Below, piece by piece: positions 21,044 to 41,994 of a stretch of DNA of 64,000 nt (position 1 is the first letter of the stretch; each line of letters starts with the position of its first letter). The stretch is from NCBI RefSeq assembly GCF_018736065.1, contig NZ_CP076128.1:1674001-1738000 (forward strand), written 5' to 3'. The translations under genes were made by a program, and so were the position numbers. The DNA is from Flammeovirga kamogawensis. GTDB taxonomy: Bacteria; Bacteroidota; Bacteroidia; Cytophagales; Flammeovirgaceae. The notes under the pieces are model-generated. The model worked only from the letters and a program-made list of their open reading frames with translations, was not told the DNA's origin and did no database searches.

Positions 21044-21925
21044 TTACTTTAGTCGTTTTGTCCAATTGATAAATAAATCAACCCATTGATTTGTACCATC
21101 AACCTCTCTTCCAGCTCCAAAACCATGTCCTCCAACAGGAAAAATATGGGTTTCTACTGCTGCTCCAACTTTGTGCATTTTCTCTGTATACAGTGTAGTT
21201 TCCTTTATAAAACAAATATCATCATCGTAAGCATGTACTAAAAATGCAGGTGGAGTATCTTTACTTACAAAGTTTAATAAAGTATTTTGTTCTATTTCTT
21301 CAGGCGTCATTTTACGGTAGTATAAATCATTTTCTAACCATTCTTTATTCGCATCAGACAAATCTGTAACACCATAAATGAACGCAGAAAAATTCGGTCT
21401 TTCTTCAATATCTTCTGATGGCCACAACGTTGCCACAGTTGCTAAGTGTCCGCCTGCAGAAAAGCCCATTACTCCTACTTTATCTTTCTTAAAACCGTAT
21501 TTATTAGAAATTGCTCGCATTAGTTTCAAGCTTCTTCTTGCATCTGTAATAGGAACTAGCCAAGGTGTATCAGAAGATTTTGGATTGGGCAATCTATATT
21601 TTAGTACTGCTGCAGTAATTCCACTTTTTGATAATGCTTTTGCTAAATCATACCCTTCATGGTACATTGCTACTAAGCCATATCCTCCTCCTGGAATGAT
21701 TACAACTGCTTTGCCTGTATTCTTTCCTTTAGCTTTAAAAACCGTTAGAGTAGGCTCTGTAATATCAAAAACACAAGTTGTTCCATAAGCTTCTTCCTCA
21801 TATTCTTTTAAGTCATTTTCTTTATAAAAAGGTTTTTCTTGCCCTTCCCAAAGGTGAATAACCTCTTGTGCATTTACAGCATTGAAAACCAATAAAAGAA
21901 AAAATGATAGTACTATATTTTTCAT
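21044..21925 (-). CDS. Secreted alpha/beta-hydrolase, carbohydrate acetylesterase-like (BD-FAE type)
   Basis: A 293-residue periplasmic esterase with a signal peptide ending at VNAQ (residue 20). The oxyanion-hole motif IIPGGGYGL is at 77-84, the nucleophile elbow GFSAGGHLA has S156, the acid is in HAYDDDICF, and the histidine is in VGGHGFGAG near residue 267. This order matches the BD-FAE/acetyl-xylan-esterase-like hydrolases found in PULs. It follows the CE7 esterase gene after only 2 bp, so the pair is co-transcribed. It probably removes acetyl (or feruloyl) groups from imported oligosaccharides. Confidence 0.85.
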   Translation of the reverse strand: MKNIVLSFFLLLVFNAVNAQEVIHLWEGQEKPFYKENDLKEYEEEAYGTTCVFDITEPTLTVFKAKGKNTGKAVVIIPGGGYGLVAMYHEGYDLAKALSKSGITAAVLKYRLPNPKSSDTPWLVPITDARRSLKLMRAISNKYGFKKDKVGVMGFSAGGHLATVATLWPSEDIEERPNFSAFIYGVTDLSDANKEWLENDLYYRKMTPEEIEQNTLLNFVSKDTPPAFLVHAYDDDICFIKETTLYTEKMHKVGAAVETHIFPVGGHGFGAGREVDGTNQWVDLFINWTKRLK

Positions 21926-21927
21926 AA

Positions 21928-23214
21928 TTATTTTACTTTATTCATTTTAAAATAAGCTCTTATTTCTTCAAATTGGCTATCCCACTTTTCATATGTTACC
22001 CAATGCCCCTGTGTTTGATCTATAAAATATTTTTTTGGCGATGTGATACGGTTGTAAGCAGAAAAACTAGTTGCAGGAGGGCACACATCATCTTGTAAAC
22101 CAATTGACATAGATACAGGCACCTTTATTTTGTGCATTAAATTTTTTGAATCAAAATAGCTTAACACATCCAGTACATCGTTCCAATTTTTTGATGGATG
22201 AGCGGCTAAGAACTCGTCAATTTCTTCCCAATGCGAAATTGTAAAATATCTTTCCCAATCTGTTAAAAACGGTATACCAGCTACACAAAAAGAAATTCTA
22301 CTATCTAAAGCTGTTGTAATCATGGCCAACCCGCCACCTTGGGAAGCACCAACAATTGCAATTCTAGATTTATCAACATCATCTCTAGTCATTAAGAAAT
22401 CCATTGCCCTAATACAATCAAGGTAAATTCCTTTGTAATAAAATTTATTCTGATCTTCTAAACCTCTGTTCCACATTTTATAATGCCTTGGACCTGTATT
22501 GTCAGAATTACCATGATCACGCACATTAAATGAGAAGACAATCATGTCATCATATTTATCTTGAGGTTCTAGACTCACAGTGTAGCCAGGTACTTCTAAG
22601 ATTGTTGGATAAATGCCTTTTTTCTTTGGTACTTCTAACCAACCTCTTACTGTTATTCCATCCGTACTTTGCATTTCCACCTCAAAAAGGTTTGTTTTTG
22701 CACTCTTATCCCTTTTAACTTTTTTCAGTTTATAATTCGGTGCTACTGCCGCTAATTCCTTTAAATTATCTTCCCAAAACTGATCAAAATCTTTTGGTTT
22801 ACGTAATGGTGAACTAATATTTTCCGGATGAGTACCAACAACCGTATACAGTTCTTGTTCTTCTCCTTGATATGTAAATTTGGCTGTTACTCTAAAGAAC
22901 CCATCTTTCTTAAAACGATAGATGGGGCAATAAGCAGACAGTATAGAGTCTCCTTTTACTTTATAAGGAAATTGTAGCGATTTAAGAGGGGTTCCTTCAT
23001 CATCTGTGATTACCCAATGTATTTTTAAATCTACATCTTCAGAGGTTTTGTTCTCTATTTGTGCATGGATTTGTAATAAACGATCTGGAAACATTCCCTC
23101 ATTATGCGGTACTAGTTGTATTGATAGTTTAGTGTTTGTTTCTTCTTGTGCAAAGGCTGTAAAATTTACCACTGTAAAACACAAGGCTAATAAAATTAGG
23201 AGATTTTTTTTCAT
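21928..23214 (-). CDS. CE7-type acetylesterase (acetyl xylan esterase/cephalosporin-C deacetylase family)
   Basis: A 428-residue secreted esterase: signal peptide (1-22), a ~100-residue beta-sandwich domain, then the CE7 alpha/beta-hydrolase. Family marks are KPKDFDQFWEDNLKEL at the domain start, VRDHGNSDNTGP in the RGQ-loop position, the nucleophile motif GASQGGGLA, D of LQDDVCPP and the histidine of QGHWVTYEKW. CE7 enzymes deacetylate short acetylated oligosaccharides of several sugars. The extra N-terminal domain is common in PUL homologues. It is in operon with the 21044 esterase. Confidence 0.9.
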   Translation of the reverse strand: MKKNLLILLALCFTVVNFTAFAQEETNTKLSIQLVPHNEGMFPDRLLQIHAQIENKTSEDVDLKIHWVITDDEGTPLKSLQFPYKVKGDSILSAYCPIYRFKKDGFFRVTAKFTYQGEEQELYTVVGTHPENISSPLRKPKDFDQFWEDNLKELAAVAPNYKLKKVKRDKSAKTNLFEVEMQSTDGITVRGWLEVPKKKGIYPTILEVPGYTVSLEPQDKYDDMIVFSFNVRDHGNSDNTGPRHYKMWNRGLEDQNKFYYKGIYLDCIRAMDFLMTRDDVDKSRIAIVGASQGGGLAMITTALDSRISFCVAGIPFLTDWERYFTISHWEEIDEFLAAHPSKNWNDVLDVLSYFDSKNLMHKIKVPVSMSIGLQDDVCPPATSFSAYNRITSPKKYFIDQTQGHWVTYEKWDSQFEEIRAYFKMNKVK

Positions 23215-23340: not shown

Positions 23341-25149
23341 CTACTTCTTGATAAATTTAAGTGGTGCTGCATAGCCTTCCACTTTAATTAAATACACACC
23401 TTTTGATAGGTTTTGAATCTGAATTTCAGTGCCTTTACCATTTAGTTGCTGTACTCCTTGTACATTGTAAACTTTATAAGTTGGCATTTCATTCTCCATT
23501 CCATCTATTGAAAATTTCACTCTATCAACCGATGGGTTTGGATAAATTGTATACTTTAATTCTTGCTCTAAACTCTTCTTAATCAGTTTTTGTCTTCCAT
23601 TGCTAGATGCTAATTGCATTTCTGCTAAATCAAATTCTACTGTAGAGCTATTTAATGCCTCTAAAATGACATTAATATGCCAAGTTCCTTCTGGTGCTGG
23701 TATTGTTGTTAAGATAATTTGTTTCCAATCAGCATCTAAATCAAAAACATCAACACTACCTGCTTCTATCACTTCTTGCCCTTGATTTCTAAATTCATAT
23801 TTTAATCTTCCTCGTGATCCACTTTGTGTTCTTGCATATACTGATAAATCAAATACATCTCCAACATTAGCAGGAGCTGCATGCATAACACCATAAGTTG
23901 GAGGGCATACTAAATAGCTTGTCCCATCATAAGCATCTGTTTTATCTGCTGCGTATTCTGGAAAAGACCAGGTTGCAAAAGGTCTCCAACCATCCGCAAA
24001 CCCATCTATTAAAGAAGATTCAAAACTACCATTTCCTAAAGAGCCATAAGGTGCAATAGAAGACAATTCGCTAGGTGTTGGTGCTGGTAAGTTTAATTCA
24101 TTTGCGATATGTGCAGCTAAAATATTTGCAAAACCTGCATGTTCATTTACAACTGTATGATAATCGCTCCAATACCAAGGGAATTTCACAAACGACATAT
24201 TTGTATCTCCGTTTGCAATTCTTTCAGCAACAAAATCGCCAACATAATCTGCAGGTTCTCCAAAGGCCCACCCTTTAGAATTTGCCATTACAATATGAGC
24301 ATTTGGGTAATGTGTTCTTAATGTAGTTACTAATTCATTCCAACTGCTTCTCATTACTGCTTCCGTTACACCAGAATAATAATCATTCGCTCCTAAATTA
24401 ATAACAACTACATCTGGAGTAAATCCCCAATAGTTATTCTCAAAATCCCATTTGTTTACTCTTTGGTTTCCTCCTGTAATATGAATTTTATCGTAATGAT
24501 CTTTTAAATCTAACTTACGTACAGCATCAGTTACGCCATGTCCACCTGCAGAAAAATTAGAAACTTCTGCATTCAACATTCTGGCCGTCATTGCTGGGTA
24601 TGTATAATACCCTCCAGATAATCGTGCATATCCTTCATCTCTTACATCCCAAGCTGACCAACCTGCTGCATTACTATCTCCGTAATATTCTATTTTAAGT
24701 GAGGGTCTAGCCGAAGGAGGTAAAAGTCCTGTACCATTCTTAATTGTAAAACCTTTAAAAGTAACCTTAGTATCGTATTCGTTTACTTTTACAATCTCCA
24801 ATGTATGGTTTCCTGCAGAAAGGTTATTTGCTAAAGTAAACACCTGATTTTTAGCGGTAACTTTTATGATTTCTCTGTTATAAGGATCTGCATTTCCATC
24901 TACAATAATATATAGAAAACTATTTCCTAATGTGTTAGAAAATGTACCTTCTACTTCTGTTCCATTAAAATTAATTTTTATTGATGTACTTGGAAGACTA
25001 AAAACAGGAGCATCTGGGGTCTTCATTGTCATTCTTCCAGAATACTGAATATAGTTGTTTGATGGAGTGACATTGATAGTCTGTGCGATAACAGTACTTT
25101 GTAATGCAAAAAGCACTACAACAATCAAAAAATTTGTAATTGTGTTCAT
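23341..25149 (-). CDS. CE2-like SGNH acetylesterase with carbohydrate-binding and T9SS domains
   Basis: A 602-residue secreted enzyme. After the signal peptide (1-22) comes an N-terminal jelly-roll domain (25-140) as in CE2 esterases, then an SGNH hydrolase with nucleophile S159 in YYGDSN, the glycine block SAGGHG, GAND (VVINLGANDYY), and the catalytic His in WSDYHTVVNE. Residues ~370-510 form a CBM-like beta-sandwich (NGSFESSLIDGFADGW). The last ~75 residues (YPNPSVDRVKFS ... LKFIKK) are a T9SS sorting domain, so it works outside the cell. It should deacetylate the polymer before or during uptake. Confidence 0.88.
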   Translation of the reverse strand: MNTITNFLIVVVLFALQSTVIAQTINVTPSNNYIQYSGRMTMKTPDAPVFSLPSTSIKINFNGTEVEGTFSNTLGNSFLYIIVDGNADPYNREIIKVTAKNQVFTLANNLSAGNHTLEIVKVNEYDTKVTFKGFTIKNGTGLLPPSARPSLKIEYYGDSNAAGWSAWDVRDEGYARLSGGYYTYPAMTARMLNAEVSNFSAGGHGVTDAVRKLDLKDHYDKIHITGGNQRVNKWDFENNYWGFTPDVVVINLGANDYYSGVTEAVMRSSWNELVTTLRTHYPNAHIVMANSKGWAFGEPADYVGDFVAERIANGDTNMSFVKFPWYWSDYHTVVNEHAGFANILAAHIANELNLPAPTPSELSSIAPYGSLGNGSFESSLIDGFADGWRPFATWSFPEYAADKTDAYDGTSYLVCPPTYGVMHAAPANVGDVFDLSVYARTQSGSRGRLKYEFRNQGQEVIEAGSVDVFDLDADWKQIILTTIPAPEGTWHINVILEALNSSTVEFDLAEMQLASSNGRQKLIKKSLEQELKYTIYPNPSVDRVKFSIDGMENEMPTYKVYNVQGVQQLNGKGTEIQIQNLSKGVYLIKVEGYAAPLKFIKK

Positions 25150-25310: not shown

Positions 25311-26894
25311 TCACTTACCTAAATCTTTGTTCTTAGTTGAGTTGCTTGTAACAGATATAGCTTCCATTGCTACTGCATCAAACTTTACTTTATTGTTTAC
25401 TCCTGCCTTTAAAACAACATTTATTTGCCAAGTGCCTAACGGAGCTTCTTCAGATAGAAACTGTACTTTTGTCCAGTTACTTGTAACCGTACACACCTTA
25501 TTATGTTTTGTAATTACTTGCTGTGCTTGGTTTCTAAATTCATAACCTAAAATTCCAGTACCTTTCGTTCCTTTTACCCACACAGAAATTAAATATTTAT
25601 CTCCTTTTTGTGCTTTTACTGCTTGATGAATCCCTCCATTTTCTTCACACTCAACATAAGCCTTTCCTTCTTTTGCATTAGATGTATTGACTATAGTTTT
25701 TGCTTCTGCAGAAGAAATTGGACGCCATCCATCTGGTCTTATTTTTAAAATACTGCTTTCAAAAGAGGTATTCCCTAACAGTTCTCCTTCTTTAGGAAAA
25801 CATGAATATTGATTTGGTTTTGGCTTATCCCATCCTTTTACTTTAGCAATATGTGCTGCTAGAATATCTGCAAAACCTGCTTGTTCTGAAATAACTGCAT
25901 GATCTGGCCCCCACAACCAAGGAAATTTGACATAAGAAATATTGTGTTCTCCATTTAATTGAAAATCTTTAATCATTTCCTTTATGTAATCAGTCGGTTC
26001 GCCAATAGCCCAACCTTCTGAATTTGCAAGTACAATGTGTGTATTTTGATAATGCGTTCTCAATAAATAAGTAACAAAGCGTTTCCAGCTTTCAATTTGC
26101 TCGGCTTTGGTTGCCCCATTATAAAAGTCGTTTGCTCCTAAATTGATAACTACAACATCTGGTTCTTTATTGATATAATTGTTTTCAAAATCCCAATAAT
26201 TAGTAGATGGGTTATCTGTTTTAATATGGATTTTATTATAATATCTTGACAGGTCTCTTTCTCCCATTTTTGGTGTTATTCCGTACCCTCCTGCAGAGAA
26301 GTTGACATATTCTGCATTTAATGCTCTTGATACAAATCCTGGATAAGTAAAATAACCTTCACTTTCGTTATCACCTCCTTGGTCTCTGTCGTTCCATGCC
26401 GACCAACCCGAAGGGTTTGAATCTCCATAAAACTCTATAAATCTTTTTGGTTTTGCCTTTAAAGCGTATGTGTTATTTGAGGGAATATCAAACCCATAAA
26501 AAGAAACCATACTCCAATACTCGCTTACTTTAACAAGTTCTACAGTATGAAAAGTGTCTGATAAATTCGTTGCAATTTCGTAGCTTTTTTTTGTACCTGA
26601 AACCTCTATTATAGTTCTATTGTATGGTGTAGCTTTTCCATCAACAATTACATATAAATAGCTTTTGCCATTACCATCAAAATTATTACTTGATAAAACC
26701 GCATTGATGGCCGTTCCTTTAAAGCGAACTTTAATAGCACTACTTGGCATACTAAAAGTAGGAACTTTCGGGTTAGAAAATTCGATACGTCCAGTGTACT
26801 GAAGATGTGGATTATCAGGGTAAATATTAATTGTTTGTGCTGTTACAATTCTAGAGAAGAAAAGTAACAACACAATTAGATCAAAGAGTTTCAT
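25311..26894 (-). CDS. CE2-like SGNH acetylesterase, paralogue without T9SS domain
   Basis: A 527-residue paralogue of the 23341 protein with the same order: signal peptide (1-19), jelly-roll domain, SGNH domain (FYGDSNPSGWSAWN, NFSAGGYG, VVINLGANDFY, GPDHAVISE) and CBM-like beta-sandwich (NTSFESSILKIRPDGW). It ends at that domain with no sorting signal, so it is probably periplasmic or simply released, in contrast with its T9SS-exported sister. It starts 8 bp after the GH30 stop codon, in the same operon. Confidence 0.87.
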   Translation of the reverse strand: MKLFDLIVLLLFFSRIVTAQTINIYPDNPHLQYTGRIEFSNPKVPTFSMPSSAIKVRFKGTAINAVLSSNNFDGNGKSYLYVIVDGKATPYNRTIIEVSGTKKSYEIATNLSDTFHTVELVKVSEYWSMVSFYGFDIPSNNTYALKAKPKRFIEFYGDSNPSGWSAWNDRDQGGDNESEGYFTYPGFVSRALNAEYVNFSAGGYGITPKMGERDLSRYYNKIHIKTDNPSTNYWDFENNYINKEPDVVVINLGANDFYNGATKAEQIESWKRFVTYLLRTHYQNTHIVLANSEGWAIGEPTDYIKEMIKDFQLNGEHNISYVKFPWLWGPDHAVISEQAGFADILAAHIAKVKGWDKPKPNQYSCFPKEGELLGNTSFESSILKIRPDGWRPISSAEAKTIVNTSNAKEGKAYVECEENGGIHQAVKAQKGDKYLISVWVKGTKGTGILGYEFRNQAQQVITKHNKVCTVTSNWTKVQFLSEEAPLGTWQINVVLKAGVNNKVKFDAVAMEAISVTSNSTKNKDLGK

Positions 26895-26902
26895 ATGAGA
26901 GC

Positions 26903-28507
26903 TTATTTAGATATTACATAAGTTGTAATAGACTTAGGAGTAATCACTACAGGTGCATTAACCTCTTGTTCTCCTATATATTCTAGGTTTTTAGAAGAAG
27001 ATGTTTGGTACATTTTCATCTCTTGATTATCCATTGCCTCTCCATCAAAATTAAAATTGATGGTATACTCGTAATCGTTATAATTGACCAGAACTAAAAC
27101 AACTTTACTTCCATCTGAAGTTGCATATGCAGACGCCATAATTCTTTTTTGAGTAAAAGGATCATCGTTCGTTTTACCAAACAATTGATTTATCTCAACT
27201 CTATACATTCCTTTATCGATAAAGCGACTATAATTGCCCATTGCATAAAGCATTTTAGAAGTTTGGTAACTACCTCCAGTTTCAGATTTATCTATATAAA
27301 TAAGCCCATCTTTATAATCATATGGGCTTGCTGCAATCCACCATTGCCAAGCAGATGCATTGGCTTCTGTAAGGTCGTAATGCATTACTCTTGCTAAGTA
27401 AAGTCCCATATCAATAGTTAAATCTCTTCCATTACCATCAATATTTTCTTCGTTATCACCCATAATACAATACTCCGACATATTGTATTTTAAGGTAGGG
27501 TTCGTTTCTTTTATTTTACTCCAAACTTGTTGGCGCATTGGTGCTAACTTACTTTGTTCGGTAGTCCAATAACTATGCCCCGCAACACTTTTAGAAAGGT
27601 GATTTAAACCGGCTACAGAGTTACTCCCCGATCCATAAAAATCTTCTATCTGATTATCTTTACCAGGTCTATTAGTTCCTGTTTTATAGAGGTAATCTAT
27701 TTGCCCTGCCTCTGTTAATTCTATTTTTGTAGCTAAACCTTTTTCTGTGATTTTAGCATCAAGTTTTCTTACTAAATCAGCTACTTCTTCATTTGTGAAA
27801 GGACAACCTTCTTGCCCAGATGAACTATCCCAATCCCATTGAGTTTCGTTTACTGGACTTATATCATTCAACGTAATACCTTCAATATCTTTTAACTGTT
27901 TTGCGACATCTGTTAAGTACTCTGCAAAGTTTTCAAACTCTTCTGTTGCTAAATTTGACGCCTGTGCAGTAGATGTATTTGCTTTTCCGTTCTTTGTCAT
28001 CTGAACTGGTGCACTATTAGAGAAACCAATAAATTTATCTACACCACGTTGTTTTGCTGCTTGTAAAAACCAACGCTGACCAGCTTGTTTTGTCCAATCG
28101 TACGTACCGTTATCTAATAAAAAGCCTTCTGTTCTTCTCCAGGGGTCATAAATATCACTGTTACTCCCTTGAGCTACAGAACCTGCCCCAATATTAAAAC
28201 GCCAAATGTTTAAGCCAATTCCTTTCGGAGAACCAGTATCATCCATTTGTGTAGAAAATAATAAATCGGCTATTTCGTTTTTTGTTGATTCAGGCCATTT
28301 TCCAACATGTTGCATAGACCACGCATCAGAAGCTCCAAAACCATCAATTACTTGATATTTATCTGATAATCTAATTGTTAAAGTCGTATCTCCTAAACTG
28401 TTATCTTCATTTCTTGTCGTATTATCATCATTACAAGCTGTAATACTTAAAGAAACAAGTGCCAAATAAATCCATTTTAATTTCATTAGATCTGTATTTT
28501 TATTCAA
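26903..28507 (-). CDS. GH30 family glycoside hydrolase (lipoprotein), endo-beta-1,6-galactanase-like
   Basis: A 534-residue lipoprotein (lipobox Cys at 25, SLSITAC). The (beta/alpha)8 domain starts with YQVIDGFGASDAW and has the acid/base E221 in SPVNETQWDW followed by SSSGQEGCPF, and the nucleophile E345 in YNMSEYC. A small beta domain (about 440-534) completes the family layout. The NE(T/P)QWDW...QEG pattern resembles the GH30 group with endo-beta-1,6-galactanases more than glucuronoxylanases. Related specificities cannot be excluded. The adjacent GH2 beta-galactosidase supports a galactan-type substrate. Confidence 0.85.
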   Translation of the reverse strand: MNKNTDLMKLKWIYLALVSLSITACNDDNTTRNEDNSLGDTTLTIRLSDKYQVIDGFGASDAWSMQHVGKWPESTKNEIADLLFSTQMDDTGSPKGIGLNIWRFNIGAGSVAQGSNSDIYDPWRRTEGFLLDNGTYDWTKQAGQRWFLQAAKQRGVDKFIGFSNSAPVQMTKNGKANTSTAQASNLATEEFENFAEYLTDVAKQLKDIEGITLNDISPVNETQWDWDSSSGQEGCPFTNEEVADLVRKLDAKITEKGLATKIELTEAGQIDYLYKTGTNRPGKDNQIEDFYGSGSNSVAGLNHLSKSVAGHSYWTTEQSKLAPMRQQVWSKIKETNPTLKYNMSEYCIMGDNEENIDGNGRDLTIDMGLYLARVMHYDLTEANASAWQWWIAASPYDYKDGLIYIDKSETGGSYQTSKMLYAMGNYSRFIDKGMYRVEINQLFGKTNDDPFTQKRIMASAYATSDGSKVVLVLVNYNDYEYTINFNFDGEAMDNQEMKMYQTSSSKNLEYIGEQEVNAPVVITPKSITTYVISK

Positions 28508-28544: not shown

Positions 28545-31709
<3,165 letters not shown>

Positions 31710-31786: not shown

Positions 31787-33355
31787 TTAGTATCCTGGAT
31801 TTTGTTTCACAGCCCCATTAGATAAATCTATTTGAGTCTGAGGAATTGGAAAAACAATATGCTTGCTTTCATTCCATAACGATCCTTTATTATTTCCTGC
31901 ATCGTAATCAGTATTTGAATTCATGTTATAATCCACAAAATCTCCAATTACTTGTGTCATACGACCCGTTCTTTTTAAATCATAAAAACGCTCTCCCTCC
32001 ATTGCTAATTCTAAACGACGTTCTTTATAGATATCACTTAATAATTGAGCTCCAGAAGAATTTATTAATGCCATTCCATGTCCTGCTGCTGCGTTATCAA
32101 TTGCTCTTTGACGAACTTGATTTACATAATTCTTAGCAGAACTTTGATCACCAGTATGATAAGCTGCTTCTGCCGCCATTAAAAGAACATCTGCGTAACG
32201 TATGATTTTGTATTGGTATGGATCATTATAATATTGTCCAGTTCTTGCAGAAGATTTTAAAAACATCTTTCTATTAATTCTACCTGATGCATTAGATCCA
32301 TCATTCTCATTGTCTGCAAAAGCATAATACGGTGTTCCCGTAGCATCTGGGTTACCATCTCCATCTAATTTATCCATATGCTTAATCATAGTGAATCCTT
32401 TACGGGGATCGTCTGAACCAAAAGCAATATCAAGATTACTTGATGGTGTATCAAAACCCCATCCATTTACATTTCCATTCTGACTAGAGCGTGAACCCGA
32501 TACTGTTGGAAATGATGCACCTAAAGCAAAAGACATATCATTAGATGTTTGAATTTCAAAAATAGACTCTAATGAATTTCTTGTTGTTCCATCCCAAAGT
32601 GTTGATAAAGATGATTCTAAAGAATAGCCCCCTTTCATTACTTCTCTAGATTGTGCTAAAGACTCTGTCCATTTACTTTGGTATAAATATACTTTGGCTA
32701 ATAATGCCTGCGCTGTTCCTTTAGTAATTCTACCTAACTCATCAGAACCTTGTGCAGATCTTGTTGGTAAATGAGGAATTGCTGCTAATAAATCTGACTC
32801 AATAAAAGCCCACGTTTCTGCTTCAGTACTTCTTGGTTTTTCTGCATCTTCTTCTCTAGATTCTGCATCCATAATAATTACTCCACCAAAGTTTCTAACC
32901 AAACCAAAGTACTGGTAGGCTCTTAAAACTTTTGCTTCTGAAACTATTTGATCTTTAATTTCTTGGTCATCAAAAGGTGCATTTGGAACCCTATCAATTA
33001 CTATATTGGCATGGTAAATACCTTTGTAACTATAATTCCACTCTTGCTCTAACCACTCATTCTGAGGCGTGATATCAAACTTAGAAAGTAAAGAAAAATC
33101 TAGCTGATCTGAATAGCCATCAAAAGCATCATCAGAACAAACGTCTCCTACATATCTAAAGAAATCTTTATAATACCAATCATCACCACTTAACCAGTAA
33201 TAAGATGCCATTAAACCTTGAGTGGCTTCTTTTTCATTCTGATAAAAGTTATCTACAGTCTGCACTCCTTGAGGAGGATTATTTAAGAAATCTGAACACC
33301 CTACAGTTCCAGATAGAAGTGCAGAAGCGATTATATATTTTGCTAATGTTTTCAT
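31787..33355 (-). CDS. SusD/RagB family glycan-binding lipoprotein (PUL)
   Basis: A 522-residue outer-membrane lipoprotein with lipidated Cys at 20 (GTVGC). VLRAYQYFGLVRNFGG, the TPR-like repeats (AQALLAKVYLYQSKW) and the C-terminal KERRLELAMEGERFYDLKRTGR are hallmarks of SusD/RagB. It follows susC by 20 bp and precedes the GH2 gene. It should bind the PUL's target oligosaccharide on the cell surface and form the lid of the SusC transporter. Confidence 0.95.
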   Translation of the reverse strand: MKTLAKYIIASALLSGTVGCSDFLNNPPQGVQTVDNFYQNEKEATQGLMASYYWLSGDDWYYKDFFRYVGDVCSDDAFDGYSDQLDFSLLSKFDITPQNEWLEQEWNYSYKGIYHANIVIDRVPNAPFDDQEIKDQIVSEAKVLRAYQYFGLVRNFGGVIIMDAESREEDAEKPRSTEAETWAFIESDLLAAIPHLPTRSAQGSDELGRITKGTAQALLAKVYLYQSKWTESLAQSREVMKGGYSLESSLSTLWDGTTRNSLESIFEIQTSNDMSFALGASFPTVSGSRSSQNGNVNGWGFDTPSSNLDIAFGSDDPRKGFTMIKHMDKLDGDGNPDATGTPYYAFADNENDGSNASGRINRKMFLKSSARTGQYYNDPYQYKIIRYADVLLMAAEAAYHTGDQSSAKNYVNQVRQRAIDNAAAGHGMALINSSGAQLLSDIYKERRLELAMEGERFYDLKRTGRMTQVIGDFVDYNMNSNTDYDAGNNKGSLWNESKHIVFPIPQTQIDLSNGAVKQNPGY

Positions 33356-33375: not shown

Positions 33376-36300
33376 TTAGAAGTTAAAGTTTACACCCATC
33401 ATGATAGTTCTTGGTGTTGGGTAAGCACCCCAATCAATACCTCTATCAAGAAGTCCATTTGAACTACCATTTACATCTGGGTCCATACCGTCATAACCTG
33501 TAATAGTAAATAGGTTTTGAGCAGATGCAAAAACTCTTAATTGCTCAACATTCTTGATTTTATTAAACGTATAACCAACTTGGATATTTTGAAGTCTCAA
33601 GAACGATCCATCTTGTATATAAAGACTCGAGAATCTATGGAAGTTTGCAGTCTGACTAGCACCATCTAAACGTGGGTAGAAATTTGTTGATCCTTCTCCA
33701 GACCATGATCTATCTGCTACTCCTTGTTGAATATTTGTGTTTCCTAAATCACCTGAGTAAGTATATGGAGCCATTCCATTAATGATGTCATTACCATATG
33801 TTCCTTGGAAAGTCATTGATAAATCAAACCCTTTGTATGTACCATTTAAAGTTAAACCAAATACTACATCTGGTTCTGGGTTACCAATATATTGTCTATC
33901 CTCATCAGAAATAACACCATCACCATTCAGGTCTTTAAAACGGATATCGCCAACAGCAGCATTTGGCTGAATTAGTTTCCCTTCGTTAGTTGCATGGCTA
34001 TTAATTTCTTTTTGATTTTGGAATACACCATCGTGTACAAAACCATAGAACCCAGCAACCGTACTTCCTACAGTAGTTCTTGTCATGTAGTTTACTCTTT
34101 GAGATGATCCACCCCAAAGTGACTCTCCTTCTTTCGATAACTCAACTACTTGAGATCTTGCTTGAGATAAGTTTAAAGATGCCCCAAAAGTCCAATCTGT
34201 TTTATTTAAATTGTAAGAGATGTTTGCATCCCAACCTCTTGTATTCATACTACCAACGTTAGCATAAATAAGTCCTGGATGTCCTGGGAAGCCCAAATGT
34301 GGAGGTACATTTTTTTGCATCAACATATCTTTTGTTGTTCTGTCGAACCAGTCAAAAGTAAATGTGAATTTATCGTTCATGATTCCAACATCAATACCGA
34401 TATCAATATCCTCTACAGTTTCCCATTTTAAATTAGGGTTACCAATAATTGCTGGAGCTAAACCTGGAGCTCTATTCCCATCAACTCCATAAACGTAATC
34501 GTAATTAGTTAATGTAGTTAGGTAGGCAGTGTTGTCTGGAATGGCTTGGTTACCCACTTGTCCCCAGCTACCTCTAAGTCTTAATTGAGACAACCAGTCG
34601 GCATTTTCTAAAAATGCTTCATTAGAGGCATTCCAACCTAATGATATTGAAGGGAAAGAAGCCCATTTGTTCTCATCTGGGAACCTCGAAGAACCATCTA
34701 TTCTAAAATTGGCAGTCATGAAGTAACGCTCATCATAAGAATAAGATAATCTTGCAAAGCCCGATGCTAATGAGTTAATATCATTTGTACCCCATCCTCT
34801 AAAGCCGTCTTGTGCAGCTTCTGGATATCTTAAATTTGGATTATTACTAGGTACATTTAACCCAGATGCTCCAGCAGTTTGATGATTTAAACGTTCCATT
34901 GCCATACCAATCATTCCAGAAACACTATGCTTGCCAAACACCTTTTGATACGTTAATGTATTATTCCACACATAGTTAGATTGAATATTCTGATCTCTCT
35001 GTGCTTTAGTAATTTCATTAAAATCATTTGGTCCGATAGAGTACTCAGGAGAAAAAGAATTTGCCTGCCATGTACTATAATAATACCCTAATTGAGTTTT
35101 AAAGGCTAATCCCTCTGCGATTTCGTAATTAAGATATGTATTTGAGAATATCTTATTTTGGATTTCATTGTAATCATTTCTAGCCACTCTACCTGCTAAG
35201 TTCGGTACATCGTTACTAGATGGTGCGTAAATACTGTATTGATTTAAGCCTTGTTGCTCATCAATTGGTTTATAAACAGTGTCAGTTGGTCTTAATCTTA
35301 CTGCATCAAAAGGAATACTTCCTGCTCCATGTATAGTTTTTGATGGAGTGATTGAAAAAGTTTGACCTATAGTTACTTTATCAGATAATTGAACATCTAA
35401 GCCAAATCTACCTGTAAACCTTTCGTAGTCATATCCTTTTAAAACCCCTTCTTGAGAATAATAGTTACCACTGATGTTGTATCTTATTTTCTCCGATCCT
35501 CCTGTAATATTAATGTTATAATCTTGAATTGGAGCAGCATCATTTTGTACTTCATTGAACCAATTTGTATCTGCACTACCAAGGGTTGTTGTACTACCAA
35601 TCATTCCCATAGCTCTTTTATACTCTTCTGCATTGGCTATTAGTGGTGTTCTTGCAACAGATTGAACACCCGCAGAAGCATCTACAGAAACACGCATAGT
35701 TCCTTCCGTTCCTTTAATTGTAGTTACGATAATTACACCGTTAGAACCTCTTGAACCATAAATTGCTGAAGATGCTGCATCTTTTAATACATGAATTTCT
35801 GCAATATCTTTTGGGCTTAAAAATGAAATATCCTCTACAATTGCCCCATCTACAACATATAATGGAGTGTTACCATTTAATGTACTAATACCACGTATGT
35901 TTATATTTGGTGATTGCCCCGGAGCTGTACCTGATTGAGAAACCTGAACACCACTTACTCTACCTTGTAATGAAGTTGCTACATCTGAAGTAGCCATTTT
36001 TCTTAGCTCATCTCCATCTGCTGAAGAAATTGCAGAAGAAACTTCACTCTTTTTTTGAGTACCGTAACCTACAACTACTACTTCTTCTAATTGCTCTGCA
36101 TCTTCTTCTAAAGTTGCATTTATTATTGATTTATTTCCGACTGTAATTTCTTGAGAGAAAAAGCCAATATAAGAGATAACTAATACATCTTCTGGTTTGG
36201 CTGAAAGGCTATAATTACCATCAAAGTCTGTTGTAGACCCAATTGATGTTCCTTTTATCAATACAGTTACTCCAATTAATGGCTCTCCAACATTTGAAGT

Positions 36301-36387
36301 TACTGTACCTGTTATTTTTTGATCTTGAGCCCAAACATTGAGCGCCATTATTATTCCGAGGAATAAAAAAAGTAATCGTTTTTTCAT
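33376..36387 (-). CDS. SusC/RagA family TonB-dependent outer-membrane transporter (PUL)
   Basis: A TonB-linked glycan importer of 1003 residues from the chosen start at 36387 (MKKRLLFLFLG), which begins a clean signal peptide ending VWAQ. An in-frame ATG at 36474 would add 29 residues ahead of the signal peptide and overlap the upstream gene, so I reject it. The carboxypeptidase-D-like domain (KITGTVTSNVGEPLIGV), EEVVVVGYG, plug (NINIRGISTLNGNTPLYVVD, AASSAIYGSRGSNGV) and a barrel ending GVNFNF are all present. It pairs with the SusD protein downstream. Confidence 0.96.
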   Translation of the reverse strand: MKKRLLFLFLGIIMALNVWAQDQKITGTVTSNVGEPLIGVTVLIKGTSIGSTTDFDGNYSLSAKPEDVLVISYIGFFSQEITVGNKSIINATLEEDAEQLEEVVVVGYGTQKKSEVSSAISSADGDELRKMATSDVATSLQGRVSGVQVSQSGTAPGQSPNINIRGISTLNGNTPLYVVDGAIVEDISFLSPKDIAEIHVLKDAASSAIYGSRGSNGVIIVTTIKGTEGTMRVSVDASAGVQSVARTPLIANAEEYKRAMGMIGSTTTLGSADTNWFNEVQNDAAPIQDYNINITGGSEKIRYNISGNYYSQEGVLKGYDYERFTGRFGLDVQLSDKVTIGQTFSITPSKTIHGAGSIPFDAVRLRPTDTVYKPIDEQQGLNQYSIYAPSSNDVPNLAGRVARNDYNEIQNKIFSNTYLNYEIAEGLAFKTQLGYYYSTWQANSFSPEYSIGPNDFNEITKAQRDQNIQSNYVWNNTLTYQKVFGKHSVSGMIGMAMERLNHQTAGASGLNVPSNNPNLRYPEAAQDGFRGWGTNDINSLASGFARLSYSYDERYFMTANFRIDGSSRFPDENKWASFPSISLGWNASNEAFLENADWLSQLRLRGSWGQVGNQAIPDNTAYLTTLTNYDYVYGVDGNRAPGLAPAIIGNPNLKWETVEDIDIGIDVGIMNDKFTFTFDWFDRTTKDMLMQKNVPPHLGFPGHPGLIYANVGSMNTRGWDANISYNLNKTDWTFGASLNLSQARSQVVELSKEGESLWGGSSQRVNYMTRTTVGSTVAGFYGFVHDGVFQNQKEINSHATNEGKLIQPNAAVGDIRFKDLNGDGVISDEDRQYIGNPEPDVVFGLTLNGTYKGFDLSMTFQGTYGNDIINGMAPYTYSGDLGNTNIQQGVADRSWSGEGSTNFYPRLDGASQTANFHRFSSLYIQDGSFLRLQNIQVGYTFNKIKNVEQLRVFASAQNLFTITGYDGMDPDVNGSSNGLLDRGIDWGAYPTPRTIMMGVNFNF

Positions 36388-36416
36388 TGTCTTTGTTGAA
36401 TTAGAAATTGAGAGTA

Positions 36417-36449
36417 TTTCCGAGTAAATGCAATCACTAACTCGGGAAA
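36417..36449 (-). other. Intercistronic hairpin between glycan-binding protein and susC
   Basis: CCGAGT and ACTCGG (extended by T/A pairs around one bulged base) form a stem with a 14-base loop in the 73-bp gap. There is no T-run. It may set the ratio of the surface binding protein to SusC by mRNA processing. Confidence 0.4.
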
Positions 36450-36460
36450 GTTTAGCCACC

Positions 36461-37741
36461 CTACTGTTTAACAACAGTACAAATATTTGTTATTGTGTTT
36501 ACTGTAATTTTATAAGAACCCGGACTACTGATATAATATGGTATATATAAATCCGAATCTACATTTGTTACTTCTACTGGCGGAGTTAGCGGCCAAGAAT
36601 CATTACCTGTTGGATTTTCTCCATTCTGATCTACACCATAATTAATTGGATTATAATCTGATGTTTGCCCTAAAAATGCAAAGAAAACACCGTATTCACC
36701 TGTAGCGTCGTCCCAAGGAATATCTTTAAATGTATAAGTCCCTTCAAAAATACCTTCAGAACTCCTTGTCATTTCTGTAGCTAATGATGGATTGTACCAT
36801 GAGTTATCATCTAATCCATCAATTCCTCCAGAAATAATATACATTTGCTCTGGTGCTGGAGGTAAAGGAGCTTGGGTTAATTTAATAGTTAACTCCATTG
36901 TTTCTATATTAAACAACACTTTATATTTACCTGGGCTATCGTAAAACGAAAGTGGTTGAATATTGTAAAAACCTGGTTCTGAATCCCAACTTGGAATTGA
37001 GGCATTTTCATCAGTTACCATTGGGAAAGTCATCTCGCCAGCATTTTCATCAAATATCACATAACCAGGATAATTACTACTTTCTTCATAGTTATTTCCA
37101 TTCCACCACCAAGAAGTATCATGGAAAGATGGATCTACATTTTCTACATCAACTACTGCATTAAAAGGAAGTACTCCTGAAGTTTGACCAATAATAGCCA
37201 ATGCTACACCCCAACTATCGGCTCCACCGCCACCCATAAATTCTACATCTACAGAGTATATATTTGGGTCAGTCTCAGATCTTTTCATTAAGAGTGCATT
37301 AGCAGGTGTTGTCCACTCTGCATTTACACCTACTAAATTATGCCCGTGCAAATAAATATTCTGAGAGTCGGTAACTTTAGCTAATTGCGTAGCTTTTGTA
37401 GTATTTCCACCAATACTTGTTGCTGTTAGTTCTATAGATGCTTCATCTTTTGCATCTGCAGGAATTGCAAATGTGTAATTTAAATCAAAAGTTTTAGGCA
37501 TTTCATCCTTCAACTCTATTACTCTATCTAAATCCCATTCGGGTTGATATAAGTGTATATTACTTAATCCCAATTCGTGAGAAATTGTGGCTTGAATCTG
37601 CATATTCTCGCCTCTTGTTACATCTACTGACTCTGCTGTATTAATAACAGGATTAGTAGGATCATTGATTTCATCCTCTTTACAAGATTGGAAGAGTAAG
37701 CCAATCAGAAGGATATTTAATAAGTAAAGTTTAGTTCTCAT
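36461..37741 (-). CDS. SusE/SusF-like surface glycan-binding lipoprotein, first gene of the PUL
   Basis: A 426-residue lipoprotein (lipobox LLFQSC, C20). After an immunoglobulin-like domain (about 30-125), two related modules (about 128-290 and 300-426) contain tryptophan-rich strands (TSWWWNGNNYEES, DNSWYNPSLA) and the paired phrases VALAIIGQTSG and VFFAFLGQTSD, showing internal duplication. These look like carbohydrate-binding platforms. Being promoter-proximal to susC is unusual, since such genes more often follow susD. It is transcribed divergently from the hybrid regulator, which presumably controls it. Confidence 0.78.
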   Translation of the reverse strand: MRTKLYLLNILLIGLLFQSCKEDEINDPTNPVINTAESVDVTRGENMQIQATISHELGLSNIHLYQPEWDLDRVIELKDEMPKTFDLNYTFAIPADAKDEASIELTATSIGGNTTKATQLAKVTDSQNIYLHGHNLVGVNAEWTTPANALLMKRSETDPNIYSVDVEFMGGGGADSWGVALAIIGQTSGVLPFNAVVDVENVDPSFHDTSWWWNGNNYEESSNYPGYVIFDENAGEMTFPMVTDENASIPSWDSEPGFYNIQPLSFYDSPGKYKVLFNIETMELTIKLTQAPLPPAPEQMYIISGGIDGLDDNSWYNPSLATEMTRSSEGIFEGTYTFKDIPWDDATGEYGVFFAFLGQTSDYNPINYGVDQNGENPTGNDSWPLTPPVEVTNVDSDLYIPYYISSPGSYKITVNTITNICTVVKQ

Positions 37742-38049
37742 AAGTCAGTTGAAACTATTGAAGATAATAAATTCATTTCATGTTGCTTTTACGCTTACAA
37801 ATATGAAAGGCACAATTTTAAAACGGGTCTTTTAATTATTTTAATCAAAGGGTCAAATCATTACACAGTAATTTACCTATAGAACAACAAAAGGTACAAA
37901 TCAGTATATCAGCAGATCAAACAAAACTCAAACAACTAATATTCAGCTACTTAAATTATATTAATAAAGAATTATTTCACCCTTAAATATTAAGTGTTAT
38001 TTTTACTACATAAATACAATTATACTCTATTCGCGTAGTCTTCCCTCTA
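37742..38049. promoter_or_regulatory. Divergent PUL control region (operator/promoters not resolved)
   Basis: A 308-bp interval between the first PUL gene and the hybrid regulator, transcribed outward in both directions. It must hold the AraC-type binding sites of the regulator and both promoters. I could not find a perfect TAnnTTTG box or clear direct repeats by eye. Confidence 0.5.
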
Positions 38050-41000
38050 ATGTTTAACAAAACTAATTTACTTCTTTTAACGGTAATCCTACTTCTTAGT
38101 CATCTATCTGTAGGACAATCTTCTAATAACTATACTACTCTAGATGGTCTATCACACAATACTGTTTATCAAATTGAGCAAGATGATTATGGTCTAATTT
38201 GGTTAGCTACAGAAAGTGGTTTAAGTGTTTTTGATGGTAATGATTTTAACCTTGTACAACCAATTTATAGAGATAGTTTACCATCTCATTTTATTACATC
38301 TATAGAAATCAAATCACCAAAAGAAGTATGGGTTGGTACTACAAAAGGTTTAAGAGTAATTGATCAGGTACATGAAAAAATTATAAATGCATTGCCTGAC
38401 TTAGAAAACAAAACAATTTCACATATCAAGAAATTAAATGACAACTTAACTTTAATTGGTGTCAATAATTTTGGTATTTATTTAGTAGATAATCAATACT
38501 CTATTCTTGAGCATTGGTATCAGGGTAGCTCATCAATTTCTCTTTCATCAAATCAAATAGAAAAAATTGGTATTGATAAAACTACGGGGCTAGTGTGGGT
38601 TACTAACAAAGAGACTGGAATTGACCTTATAAATATGACAAACCATTACAGTACTACTTTTCCTATTGGTAATGGTGTAAATCAGGTTCCCTCAAAAAAA
38701 GTGTATTGTATTACCCAAGATAAAGAAAACAATATATGGGTGGGTACATCTAAAGGTATTGCAAAATATGACGCCAAAACTAAAACATTATTTTCGGTTC
38801 ACAAACGTGCTTTTTTTAATACAACAATTCTATCAATCCATGCAGATTCTAAAGGTGATATTTGGATAGGTACAGAGTTAAACGGTTTATGGAAAATCCC
38901 TGCCAAAGCAAATAATCAGTTAAGTAGGGTTTCGTTACATCATGAAATTAGCAATCAGTCTATACGTTCTATTTACGAAGACATGCAACATAATATTTGG
39001 GTGGGTACACAAAGAAGAGGTGTTTATTTATTAAAAGATCAATACCATACTTTCAAGTTGATAAAGAAAGATATCTTGAGTAGTAATATTATTTGGGGTA
39101 TAACTTTAGATAATGATCAAAATATATGGGCTGGCACAGATGGACAAGGGATTACGAAATATAACCTAGAAAATAAAACTACTAAAAGATATATTCATGA
39201 CGGAAATGAGGGCTCACTTTCAGATAATAATATTATTACTGCGTTAACTTCTAAAAACGGTACACTTTGGTTTGGTACTTACTCTGGTGGTTTAAATAAA
39301 TATGATTCTATAACTGATAGTTTCCATCATTATAACAAAGAAAATGGTTTATTAAACAATGATATTAGAGCTTTAGCTGAAGATAATGACACTACTTTAT
39401 GGGTTGGTTCTAACCGTGGCGGCTTACATTTTATTGATGAACAAAACCAAAAAGCGATTTCTATTAATGCCACCCGTACAATGGACATCCGCTCTATTGC
39501 TATTAAAGATAATTTAGTATGGTTTGGAACTTATGGCGATGGTGGAATTTTTACATATAATAAATTAAAAAAAGAACTCAATAAAATTGAATTGCCTTTT
39601 GATATTGAAATTACTTTTGATTTATTTTTTGACAATAACTCACCCATTCTTTGGATAGGTACTTTTGATAAAGGGCTACTTGCCTATCGTTACAAAGAAA
39701 AAAGACTAGAAGATTTTAAAGAACATCCTTCGTTATCTTCTAATATAATTCATGCAATTCAACAAGATCAAAATGGTGTACTTTGGTTAACAACCAACCA
39801 TGGAATTGTAGCTTTTAATTACACTAAAAATACAATAACAAAACATGGTATTGATGAAGGTATTCAGCATCATGATTTTATGGATGGTTCTAGGGCAATA
39901 GGCAAAGACGGAACAATATATTTTGGAGGAGCAGGAGGTTTAAATTATTTCCATCCTAAGAACATAAAAATTAGTGTTTTACCACCACAAATTTTACTTA
40001 CGAAACTGGAAATCTATAACAAAAAAATTAGAGCTAACGATGATTCTGAAATTCTTGCTAAAAATATATCAGACACCAAATCTATAACTCTTAATAGCGA
40101 AGAAGCTCAATTCTCAATCGCTTTTCAAGGAATTGATTATAGAAACCATGATGCATTACAATATAGATATTTCATGAAAGGGTTAGACAGTGACTGGAAC
40201 TTGGTAGGTAAAAATAACTCTGCTAATTACAGTAATATTAATCCAGGAACATACCAATTTAATGTCTCTACAAAAAGTATTGGAGGTAAATGGAGTCAAC
40301 CTGTTTCTTTAGAAATCAAAATTCTTCCTCCTATTTGGGCTACATGGTGGGCAAAATTAGTTTACTTCTTTTTGGTTATTCTTGGCGCATGGTATTGGAA
40401 ATATTTTACAGGAAAGAAAGCAGAAATCCGCTCAAAATTAAAGCTACAAGAAGAACAAACTAACTTGCATAAAGAAAATAAAGAAGTGTATGAAGATATT
40501 ATTAATGAATTAAATACTCCAATTAATCAATTGTTGATGCCATTAGAAAATATGATTTATAATAATACCAACACTTCGCCAGCATTACGTAAGCAGTTGC
40601 AATTATTGTATTTAAATGCCTCTAAAATGCATAACATTGTTCGCTTTATTTTATCTAATAAAGATAGAGACGAGGAACATTTTAAATTAGAAGTCTACCA
40701 ATACAACCTTTCTACTTTTTTATTAAATTTTAGAGAATCCTTTTTATTACAAGCTGCACAATTAGGTATTAAAATAGATATTCAGTTACCAGAAAATGAC
40801 ATTACAGCTTGGTTTGATATTGAGAAAATTGAAACAATACTTCATTTTTTATTTCTTACTGTATTTCAAAATGCAACAACCTCAGATCAGTTTTTGATTG
40901 TTATAGATGTTACCGAAAACAACCGAATTAATTATGCTAATATAAATCTCTATCTAATTGATGGAGAAATGAGAGAGAAAAAAATTGATCTAGAAATGAG

Positions 41001-41994
41001 AAAAACAGCACTTATTGGAGTTCCTATGAGTGAATGGTTTCTTAAAAAACACAAAGGTTCACTCCTACTTCCTAATTCATCTTCAAATAGAATTTGTATT
41101 ACTATTCCTATCGATAAAGAGGCTTACACTACTGATGAAATAAAATTGGATGCAGAAGAAAATGGCCAGTATTATTTTAATAATGAGTTAATTACAGAGC
41201 ATACTTCTACAGAAAAAATTGATAAAACTGCTCATACGATTACAATTCTAGATGATAATAAAGATGCAATAACATTTTTCTCATCCATTTTAAGTGAATA
41301 CAACATTGTAGCTTTTGATAATTCTGTAGAGCTATTTCAGTATCTAGGAAAGAACGATACTGATATTGTACTTATTGATAATACACTCAACTCTGGATCT
41401 GGAATTGATATTATTAAAAAATTAAAGAAAGATGCAAAACTAGCTATCATTCCAAGTATATTAATAGCCTCTCATCTTACAGAAAAAAATAAAGTAAACG
41501 GCTTAAAAGCTGGTGCAGATTTATGTATTTCTAAACCCTTCCATATATCGGTTTTAAAAACTCATATTCAGAATTTAATTAATAGCAGACAATACTTTAA
41601 GAACATCTATAGAAATGAAATTCTAACGGAATCAAAAGAAGTTGTACCTGTAAATGAAGATGAAATACTAATTGCAAAAATCACTGATTTGATTGAAAAC
41701 AATATGTCAAACCCTGATTTTAAAGTACAAAGTATTCAAGATGAAATAGGTATTAGTCAATCTTCATTATACAAAAAGATTAAACAGCAAACAGGAATGT
41801 CTTCTTCTGAATTTTTACGAAATTTCAGAATTAAATTTGCAGCTAAACTTCTCGCTAAAAGCAATTTGCCTGTTGCAGAAGTAATGATGAAAGTGGGTTT
41901 CTCAGATGCAAAATATTTTAGAACAAGTTTTAAAAAGAAATACGAACTATCTCCTTCTCAATATAGAAAAGAGCATCAAAAAGAAAGTGAGTAA
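38050..41994 (+). CDS. Hybrid two-component system regulator with degenerate kinase domain
   Basis: A 1314-residue one-protein sensor-regulator for the adjacent PUL. A signal peptide (1-22) is followed by a periplasmic 14-blade Reg_prop propeller (about 30-660, repeats like NIWVGTSKGIAKYD), a Y_Y_Y domain (to ~757), a membrane helix (about 765-785), a DHp/ATPase-like region (795-1045), a receiver (1063-1180) and an AraC helix-turn-helix (1205-1314). The H-box reads INELNTPI with N819 where the phospho-acceptor His should be. The N-box and glycine boxes of the ATPase are also unrecognisable. The receiver keeps D1068/D1069, D1110 and K1162, but the switch Thr is A1140. Signalling may be allosteric or use another kinase. 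Confidence 0.93.
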   Translation: MFNKTNLLLLTVILLLSHLSVGQSSNNYTTLDGLSHNTVYQIEQDDYGLIWLATESGLSVFDGNDFNLVQPIYRDSLPSHFITSIEIKSPKEVWVGTTKGLRVIDQVHEKIINALPDLENKTISHIKKLNDNLTLIGVNNFGIYLVDNQYSILEHWYQGSSSISLSSNQIEKIGIDKTTGLVWVTNKETGIDLINMTNHYSTTFPIGNGVNQVPSKKVYCITQDKENNIWVGTSKGIAKYDAKTKTLFSVHKRAFFNTTILSIHADSKGDIWIGTELNGLWKIPAKANNQLSRVSLHHEISNQSIRSIYEDMQHNIWVGTQRRGVYLLKDQYHTFKLIKKDILSSNIIWGITLDNDQNIWAGTDGQGITKYNLENKTTKRYIHDGNEGSLSDNNIITALTSKNGTLWFGTYSGGLNKYDSITDSFHHYNKENGLLNNDIRALAEDNDTTLWVGSNRGGLHFIDEQNQKAISINATRTMDIRSIAIKDNLVWFGTYGDGGIFTYNKLKKELNKIELPFDIEITFDLFFDNNSPILWIGTFDKGLLAYRYKEKRLEDFKEHPSLSSNIIHAIQQDQNGVLWLTTNHGIVAFNYTKNTITKHGIDEGIQHHDFMDGSRAIGKDGTIYFGGAGGLNYFHPKNIKISVLPPQILLTKLEIYNKKIRANDDSEILAKNISDTKSITLNSEEAQFSIAFQGIDYRNHDALQYRYFMKGLDSDWNLVGKNNSANYSNINPGTYQFNVSTKSIGGKWSQPVSLEIKILPPIWATWWAKLVYFFLVILGAWYWKYFTGKKAEIRSKLKLQEEQTNLHKENKEVYEDIINELNTPINQLLMPLENMIYNNTNTSPALRKQLQLLYLNASKMHNIVRFILSNKDRDEEHFKLEVYQYNLSTFLLNFRESFLLQAAQLGIKIDIQLPENDITAWFDIEKIETILHFLFLTVFQNATTSDQFLIVIDVTENNRINYANINLYLIDGEMREKKIDLEMRKTALIGVPMSEWFLKKHKGSLLLPNSSSNRICITIPIDKEAYTTDEIKLDAEENGQYYFNNELITEHTSTEKIDKTAHTITILDDNKDAITFFSSILSEYNIVAFDNSVELFQYLGKNDTDIVLIDNTLNSGSGIDIIKKLKKDAKLAIIPSILIASHLTEKNKVNGLKAGADLCISKPFHISVLKTHIQNLINSRQYFKNIYRNEILTESKEVVPVNEDEILIAKITDLIENNMSNPDFKVQSIQDEIGISQSSLYKKIKQQTGMSSSEFLRNFRIKFAAKLLAKSNLPVAEVMMKVGFSDAKYFRTSFKKKYELSPSQYRKEHQKESE

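Follow-up and report, generated by a model that had tools for sequence, protein, structure and literature searches.

Can a hybrid two-component system (HTCS) still regulate a polysaccharide utilisation locus (PUL) after its histidine kinase has been dismantled? Among the regulators of polysaccharide utilisation HTCSs form a major class, which phosphorylation is assumed to switch on. The question was raised by a gene in a 64,000-nucleotide stretch of Flammeovirga kamogawensis DNA (contig NZ_CP076128.1, positions 1,674,001 to 1,738,000; the whole stretch is called the window here), whose product, designated P0001 or L001, was described in an earlier note as a hybrid regulator without a phospho-accepting His. 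Our answer, to which we give a probability of about 0.6, is that P0001 is a functional HTCS whose kinase part is a pseudokinase and which signals by conformational change, without a His-Asp phosphorelay.

The open reading frame (ORF), its coordinates and the residues that the earlier note had named (N819, D1068/D1069, D1110, A1140 and K1162) were all correct, and the propeller, receiver and AraC domain that it had listed were found by a domain scan. The Reg_prop propeller, Y_Y_Y, receiver and AraC domain lay in one chain, and the gene adjoined SusC/SusD genes; both the architecture and the context were those of an HTCS. The features of the gene, with approximate domain boundaries, were as follows.

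38050..41994, + strand: HTCS gene, single ORF of 1314 aa (propeller sensor, Y_Y_Y, transmembrane segment, pseudokinase with dimerisation/phosphotransfer (DHp) and catalytic, ATP-binding (CA) parts, receiver, AraC domain)
38119..40329, + strand: periplasmic Reg_prop propeller and Y_Y_Y, about residues 24-760, matched by the solved HTCS sensors 4a2l and 3v9f
40450..40689, + strand: pseudo-DHp, about residues 801-880, from alignment and the ratio of non-synonymous to synonymous substitution rates (dN/dS)
40504..40506, + strand: codon AAT of N819, in the phospho-His column by alignment
40690..41154, + strand: pseudo-CA, about residues 881-1035, with a shortened ATP lid and the G2 Gly lost, by alignment
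41233..41589, + strand: receiver domain, about residues 1062-1180, with D1068, D1069, D1110 and K1162 kept
41377..41379, + strand: codon of D1110, in the phospho-acceptor column of the receiver
41443..41454, + strand: A1132-I1133-I1134-P1135, where the lock between receiver and DNA-binding domain (DBD) normally has its contact motif S/C-H-I-P (motif from PMC11253607)
41467..41469, + strand: codon of A1140, in the switch Thr/Ser column
41524..41526, + strand: codon of C1159, in the beta5 switch Tyr column
41740..41970, + strand: AraC-type DNA-binding domain (HTH_18)

The H-box of P0001 reads I818-N819-E820-L821, and alignment to other HTCSs placed N819 in the phospho-His column, as had been claimed. 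An alignment slip was ruled out, 33 of the 34 rows being gap-free around the H-box and a hidden Markov model survey concurring; the sole exception, L052, was without a kinase at the H-box region. A sequencing or assembly error was also rejected, because the orthologue in genome G002 (91% identical) encodes Asn by a different codon (AAC instead of AAT). His was kept in 14 of the 15 distinct HTCS H-boxes found in the window genome (G000), P0001 being the exception. Among 151 HTCS clusters, collected by similarity and hence not a random sample, His was present in 144 and Asn in seven; 26 of 234 ORFs, including a broken copy from genome G004, had been dropped for incomplete site coverage.

The ATP site was lost as well. 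By alignment, the N-box Asn columns of P0001 were F933 and T937, and both Asn were gone in all four orthologues found. The degradation of the kinase boxes reported earlier was thus real, but N941 in the sequence then quoted as the N-box (QNATT) is not the N-box Asn. The G1-to-G2 stretch, which holds the ATP lid, was 19 residues long in all four orthologues. It spanned 27-36 residues (median 32) in a comparison set of 198 further HTCS ORFs, all of which carry His, N-box Asn and G2 Gly; the set is redundant, since it includes genes fetched more than once. Neither HisKA nor HATPase_c was matched by Pfam in P0001 at E<=1 or, at the same setting, in the orthologue L031; the His-bearing orthologues L032 and L033 gave HisKA matches under its cut-off (E 0.02 and 0.18) and none to HATPase_c. 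As a control, four paralogues, three of them ordinary and the fourth with Glu in its receiver, matched both HisKA (E 4e-11 or better) and HATPase_c at this setting. Judged from these residues, P0001 would have neither a phospho-accepting His nor an ATP-binding CA (N-box Asn, G boxes and lid). An annotation as "histidine kinase" can therefore mislead even where the domain architecture seems complete.

An AlphaFold2 model of residues 784-1314, built from 18 sequences (mean pLDDT 76.8, pTM 0.40), was predicted to fold as a DHp-CA unit plus receiver and AraC domain. Among its 50 best matches in the Protein Data Bank (PDB), most were histidine kinases, including the ordinary HK853 and SrrAB kinase; chains of RetS (6dk7, 6dk8 and 7n0e) stood high up, and DivL (4q20) ranked 32 and 33. 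P0001 thus combines a histidine kinase fold, as far as the predicted model goes, with the loss of the catalytic residues, which marks it as a probable pseudokinase.

In the receiver the phospho-acceptor D1110, the acidic pair D1068/D1069 and K1162 were present, and the residues of the phosphorylation switch were lost. Gao, Wu and Stock (PMC11253607) describe an inhibitory contact between receiver and DBD of HTCSs, S/CHIP-DK, together with a Thr/Ser-Tyr switch; according to them most HTCSs have the lock, Ala stands at its first place in about 6% of Bacteroides HTCSs, and lock substitutions in a response-regulator fragment of BT4124 made DNA binding independent of phosphorylation. P0001 has AIIP-DK, the S/C and H being lost and the I and P kept. 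The earlier placing of A1140 in the switch Thr column held in the alignment, and the beta5 Tyr had additionally become C1159. A1140, C1159 and the change of lock S/C and H to A and I remove parts by which phosphorylation would free the DBD.

Loss of relay parts and loss of the lock tended to go together across the sampled clusters. All 10 relay-lost clusters lacked the S/C plus H, compared with 27 of 103 others (Fisher p 5.6e-6). When Asn was counted as normal at the first lock place, a choice made post hoc, the tally was 15/15 against 14/136, and for the lock His alone 5/15 against 2/136. The association is only suggestive, because about three independent lineages underlie these counts.

Orthologues of P0001 were found in four of nine genus genomes, namely G000, G002 (91%), G003 (58%) and G004 (56%), and a profile search of 18 family genomes gave none beyond these. 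A wide distribution was rejected on that count (4/18) and by a contig scan, in which one of 33 was a close match (L090, the G004 contig itself). At the phospho-His column the codons were AAT in G000 and AAC in G002 (Asn), and CAT in both G003 and G004 (His), so the His-to-Asn change that the earlier note suggested seeking in related genomes was found in one of them. The H-box surroundings were otherwise identical in Asn and His orthologues (IINELNTPINQLLMPLENMI versus IIHELNTPINQLLMPLENMI). Since the two His-keeping orthologues share the same dead ATP site, kinase death came first and His-to-Asn later, the neighbouring helix remaining unaltered. Loss of His, real as it is, was consequently not the primary lesion.

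The dead kinase domains are under strong purifying selection between the closest pair, G000 and G002. Their dN/dS was 0.010 (DHp) and 0.028 (pseudo-CA), a tighter constraint than on the propeller (0.055); the receiver and the whole protein both had 0.047, and dS was about 0.86 overall; in the AraC domain dN was 0 over residues 1200-1308. Between L001 and L032, where dS was saturated, the ratios were 0.113 (DHp), 0.122 (pseudo-CA) and 0.186 (propeller). Several ratios of the saturated pairs were not computable, and all those computed were below 1. Simple drift is opposed by the closest pair; the distant pairs are less clear.

HTCSs with lost relay parts also occurred elsewhere. A DNA pattern survey of 395 genomes of the class, with N, D or Y replacing His, matched one genome, compared with 363 of 395 for the His pattern; the pattern ignores Gln, Lys and other replacements, and is blind to P0001 itself because the residues before the site are fixed. 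The matched HTCS, L190 (G369:C22), has NISNEFRTP at its H-box, has lost the N-box Asn and carries Glu at the position of the receiver Asp. It belongs to another family of Bacteroidia, of which 40 genomes were searched; they gave the relatives L192, L193, L196, L197 and L198. All six members of this clade show His-to-Asn and loss of the N-box Asn. The receiver Asp is Glu, or Lys in L192, and five of the six differ at the second acidic residue, L192 having Glu-Glu. The S/C lock position is changed and the DBD Lys replaced by Gln or Arg; the lock HIP and the beta5 Tyr are kept, and the lid stretch is normal (30-37 residues). L194, the sister of the clade in the tree, keeps His and Asp and has Ser for the N-box Asn, so that ATP-site damage appears to have preceded His-to-Asn in this lineage too, thin as a single basal sequence is. 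A SusC-like gene was adjacent in all three clade neighbourhoods scanned of six (L251, L254 and L255), and a SusD-like gene was confirmed in two of them. Because this lineage has lost His, N-box Asn and Asp, HTCSs seem able to persist beside SusC without a relay.

A common origin of the two Asn lineages was unsupported, their joint ancestor spanning all 151 clusters in a midpoint-rooted tree of receiver and DBD. In the full tree each lay among His-bearing sequences, with sister-group support of 0.85 for P0001; for the L190 lineage it was 0.47, rising to 0.998 at the next node up. Tentatively, and short of an even chance in our judgement, Bacteroidota may repeatedly convert HTCSs to transmembrane transcription factors that use no relay, the ATP site having been damaged before His-to-Asn in at least two independent lineages and the pseudokinase dimer then serving as a purely mechanical conduit from glycan-sensing propeller to AraC domain.

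A further group of Flammeovirga HTCSs is the mirror image of the window protein: the kinase residues are intact and Glu occupies the receiver Asp column. Glu-Lys replaces its acidic pair, Tyr is changed to Phe and the lock reads KNMP, KHTP, KNTP or KQIP. Its members are G000:C3:147813-151235 (L020, L024), L152, L157, L158, L159, L163, L168, L170, L174 and L176; copies were fetched from the eight genus genomes other than G002. L172 (G005:C412) keeps His, N-box Asn and receiver Asp, but its G1 Asp is replaced by Val and its G2 Gly by Ser.

The genes beside the P0001 gene, and a putative operator between it and them, were as follows.

37825..37854, no strand: putative operator between the divergent genes, a direct repeat reading GGGTC-N20-GGGTC, at the equivalent place in 4/4 genomes found with the regulator
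36461..37741, - strand: probable SusE/F-kind outer-membrane lipoprotein, without a Pfam match and named from position and lipobox
33376..36474, - strand: SusC-like TonB-dependent receptor
31787..33355, - strand: SusD-like protein
28545..31697, - strand: beta-galactosidase-like enzyme of glycoside hydrolase family 2 (GH2)
26903..28507, - strand: GH30-type glycosidase (Glyco_hydr_30_2)
25311..26894, - strand: CE2-type esterase
23341..25149, - strand: CE2-type esterase with a secretion-system C-terminal sorting domain
21928..23214, - strand: AXE1 acetyl xylan esterase-like protein
21044..21925, - strand: BD-FAE / alpha-beta hydrolase esterase

The regulator gene diverged from a lipoprotein-SusC-SusD-GH2-GH30 operon in all four genomes; the esterase genes came next in G000, G002 and G003, with no match in G004. 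The repeat GGGTC-N20-GGGTC occurred once in each regulator-bearing genome (4/4), always in this intergenic region; the five other genus genomes had no copy (0/5). The AraC domain may bind there. In G004 another HTCS lay about 22 kb from the regulator, and two short frames beside the end of the GH30 gene (L187 16897-17454, G004:C139) resembled the receiver end and AraC domain of another HTCS, apparently a broken remnant. Elsewhere in the window, 49407-52364 (- strand) encodes a protein in which GH18 and GH19 chitinase domains are joined by a secretion-system C-terminal sorting domain, and a second SusD-like gene at 2308-3906 (- strand) suggests another polysaccharide locus at the window start.

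Under conformational signalling, glycan fragments would bind the periplasmic propeller. The DHp helices, as a dimer with the lid-less CA packed on them, would carry the resulting movement across the membrane; the receiver would be a structural relay, and the AraC domains would act on the conserved repeat that precedes the divergent SusC/D-GH2-GH30 operon. His-Asp phosphorelay would play no part. Several observations weigh against this proposal. The domain arrangement of the model is unreadable because of the pTM of 0.40. D1068, D1069, D1110 and K1162 are kept in 4/4 orthologues, as expected if phosphorylation still counted; as the receiver is 70% identical (80/114) between L001 and L032, retention of these four sites says little in either direction. 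The DBD partners of the lock, D1204 and K1243, are also kept, the D and K offsets agreeing with those in PDB chain 12aw_A. The L190 clade mostly keeps the receiver Thr/Ser and Tyr columns, so switch loss is no general mark of relay-dead HTCSs. Between L032 and L033, another pair with saturated dS, dN/dS was higher in the pseudo-CA (0.168) than in the propeller (0.101), so extra constraint on the kinase is not universal. The G004 orthologue (L033 1375-4572, G004:C139, Flammeovirga sp. EKP202) has an in-frame stop between pseudo-CA and receiver, with the pieces on both sides continuing in the same frame, and thus one of the four copies may be broken. The operator repeat was found post hoc, and a control with the reversed pattern gave eight matches across five of nine genomes, so that the place of the repeat, rather than its count, is the evidence.

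The proposal of the earlier note, conformational signalling or a kinase in trans, survived the tests made, and the evidence leans to the former. D1110 could still be phosphorylated by another HTCS, perhaps in a heterodimer as with RetS-GacS, or by acetyl phosphate, with the pseudokinase as a gate; the intact acidic pocket keeps this in play, as a serious but unlikely alternative. The window genome supplies 14 other HTCSs found, every one with His, and the Glu-receiver group means that kinases without a cis acceptor exist; RetS was among the closest solved folds, and a second HTCS is encoded near the regulator in G004. Against it, the switch Thr and Tyr and the lock S/C and H are lost, leaving no obvious route from phosphorylation to DBD release, and no histidine kinase was found among 29 other window ORFs scanned (of 44 others of at least 100 aa).

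A decaying gene, heading for loss because its PUL no longer needs the regulator, would explain the stepwise loss of catalytic residues by drift, and the stop in G004 and the restriction to four of nine genus genomes fit such a course. The low dN/dS of the closest pair (0.047 for the whole protein and 0.010 for the DHp) speaks against decay, as do full-length ORFs in three genomes and the conservation of PUL synteny and repeat in 4/4, and we regard it as improbable. Hardly credible is an unconventional kinase that is still alive and uses, for example, H861 of the second DHp helix: this residue is invariant across the four orthologues, but all of them have lost the two N-box Asn and the greater part of the ATP lid, so that no ATP site is evident from which an acceptor could be supplied. 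If conformational signalling holds, a conserved HTCS whose kinase and switch have been dismantled, along with part of its lock, uncouples phosphate chemistry from sensing and from the geometry of the dimer, and natural pairs of His and Asn orthologues on the same PUL could test whether shape change alone drives it.

P0001 shares architecture and a role in polysaccharide utilisation with the canonical Bacteroides HTCSs BT1754, BT4124, BT4663 and BT3334, which were compared by description, and differs from them in the loss of kinase, switch and two lock residues; receivers of canonical Bacteroides HTCSs accept phosphate from phosphoramidate in vitro (PMC11253607). The contrast that the earlier note drew with well-studied members using intramolecular His-Asp transfer needs qualifying, for the same paper notes BT4236 of B. 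thetaiotaomicron, with Q848 for the phospho-His and CSIP-EK, as probably phosphorylation-independent (PMC11253607). BT4236, compared by published description only, is like P0001 in being without the phospho-His and having a non-consensus lock, with Gln where P0001 has Asn. In titles and abstract openings, subscription journals and preprints aside, that remark was the only mention of a relay-dead HTCS found, which is not proof of absence. A His-less HTCS has thus been published before; the literature searched showed no clade for which staged loss had been described together with evidence from selection and an operator.

The L190 clade resembles P0001 in His-to-Asn, loss of the N-box Asn and an adjacent SusC in the three neighbourhoods scanned, by independent origin, and differs in its normal lid, lost receiver Asp and kept lock HIP and beta5 Tyr. 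Aspartate-less receivers that work, or perhaps work, without phosphorylation are the subject of PMC4395418. Unlike these, the L190 clade and the Flammeovirga group with Asp changed to Glu, P0001 keeps its receiver Asp. In DivL and RetS the histidine kinase fold is reused in allosteric signalling, and both act on separate partner proteins. DivL of Caulobacter is described as a pseudokinase and RetS of Pseudomonas as blocking GacS. P0001, unlike either, has sensor, pseudokinase, receiver and DNA-binding domain in one chain.

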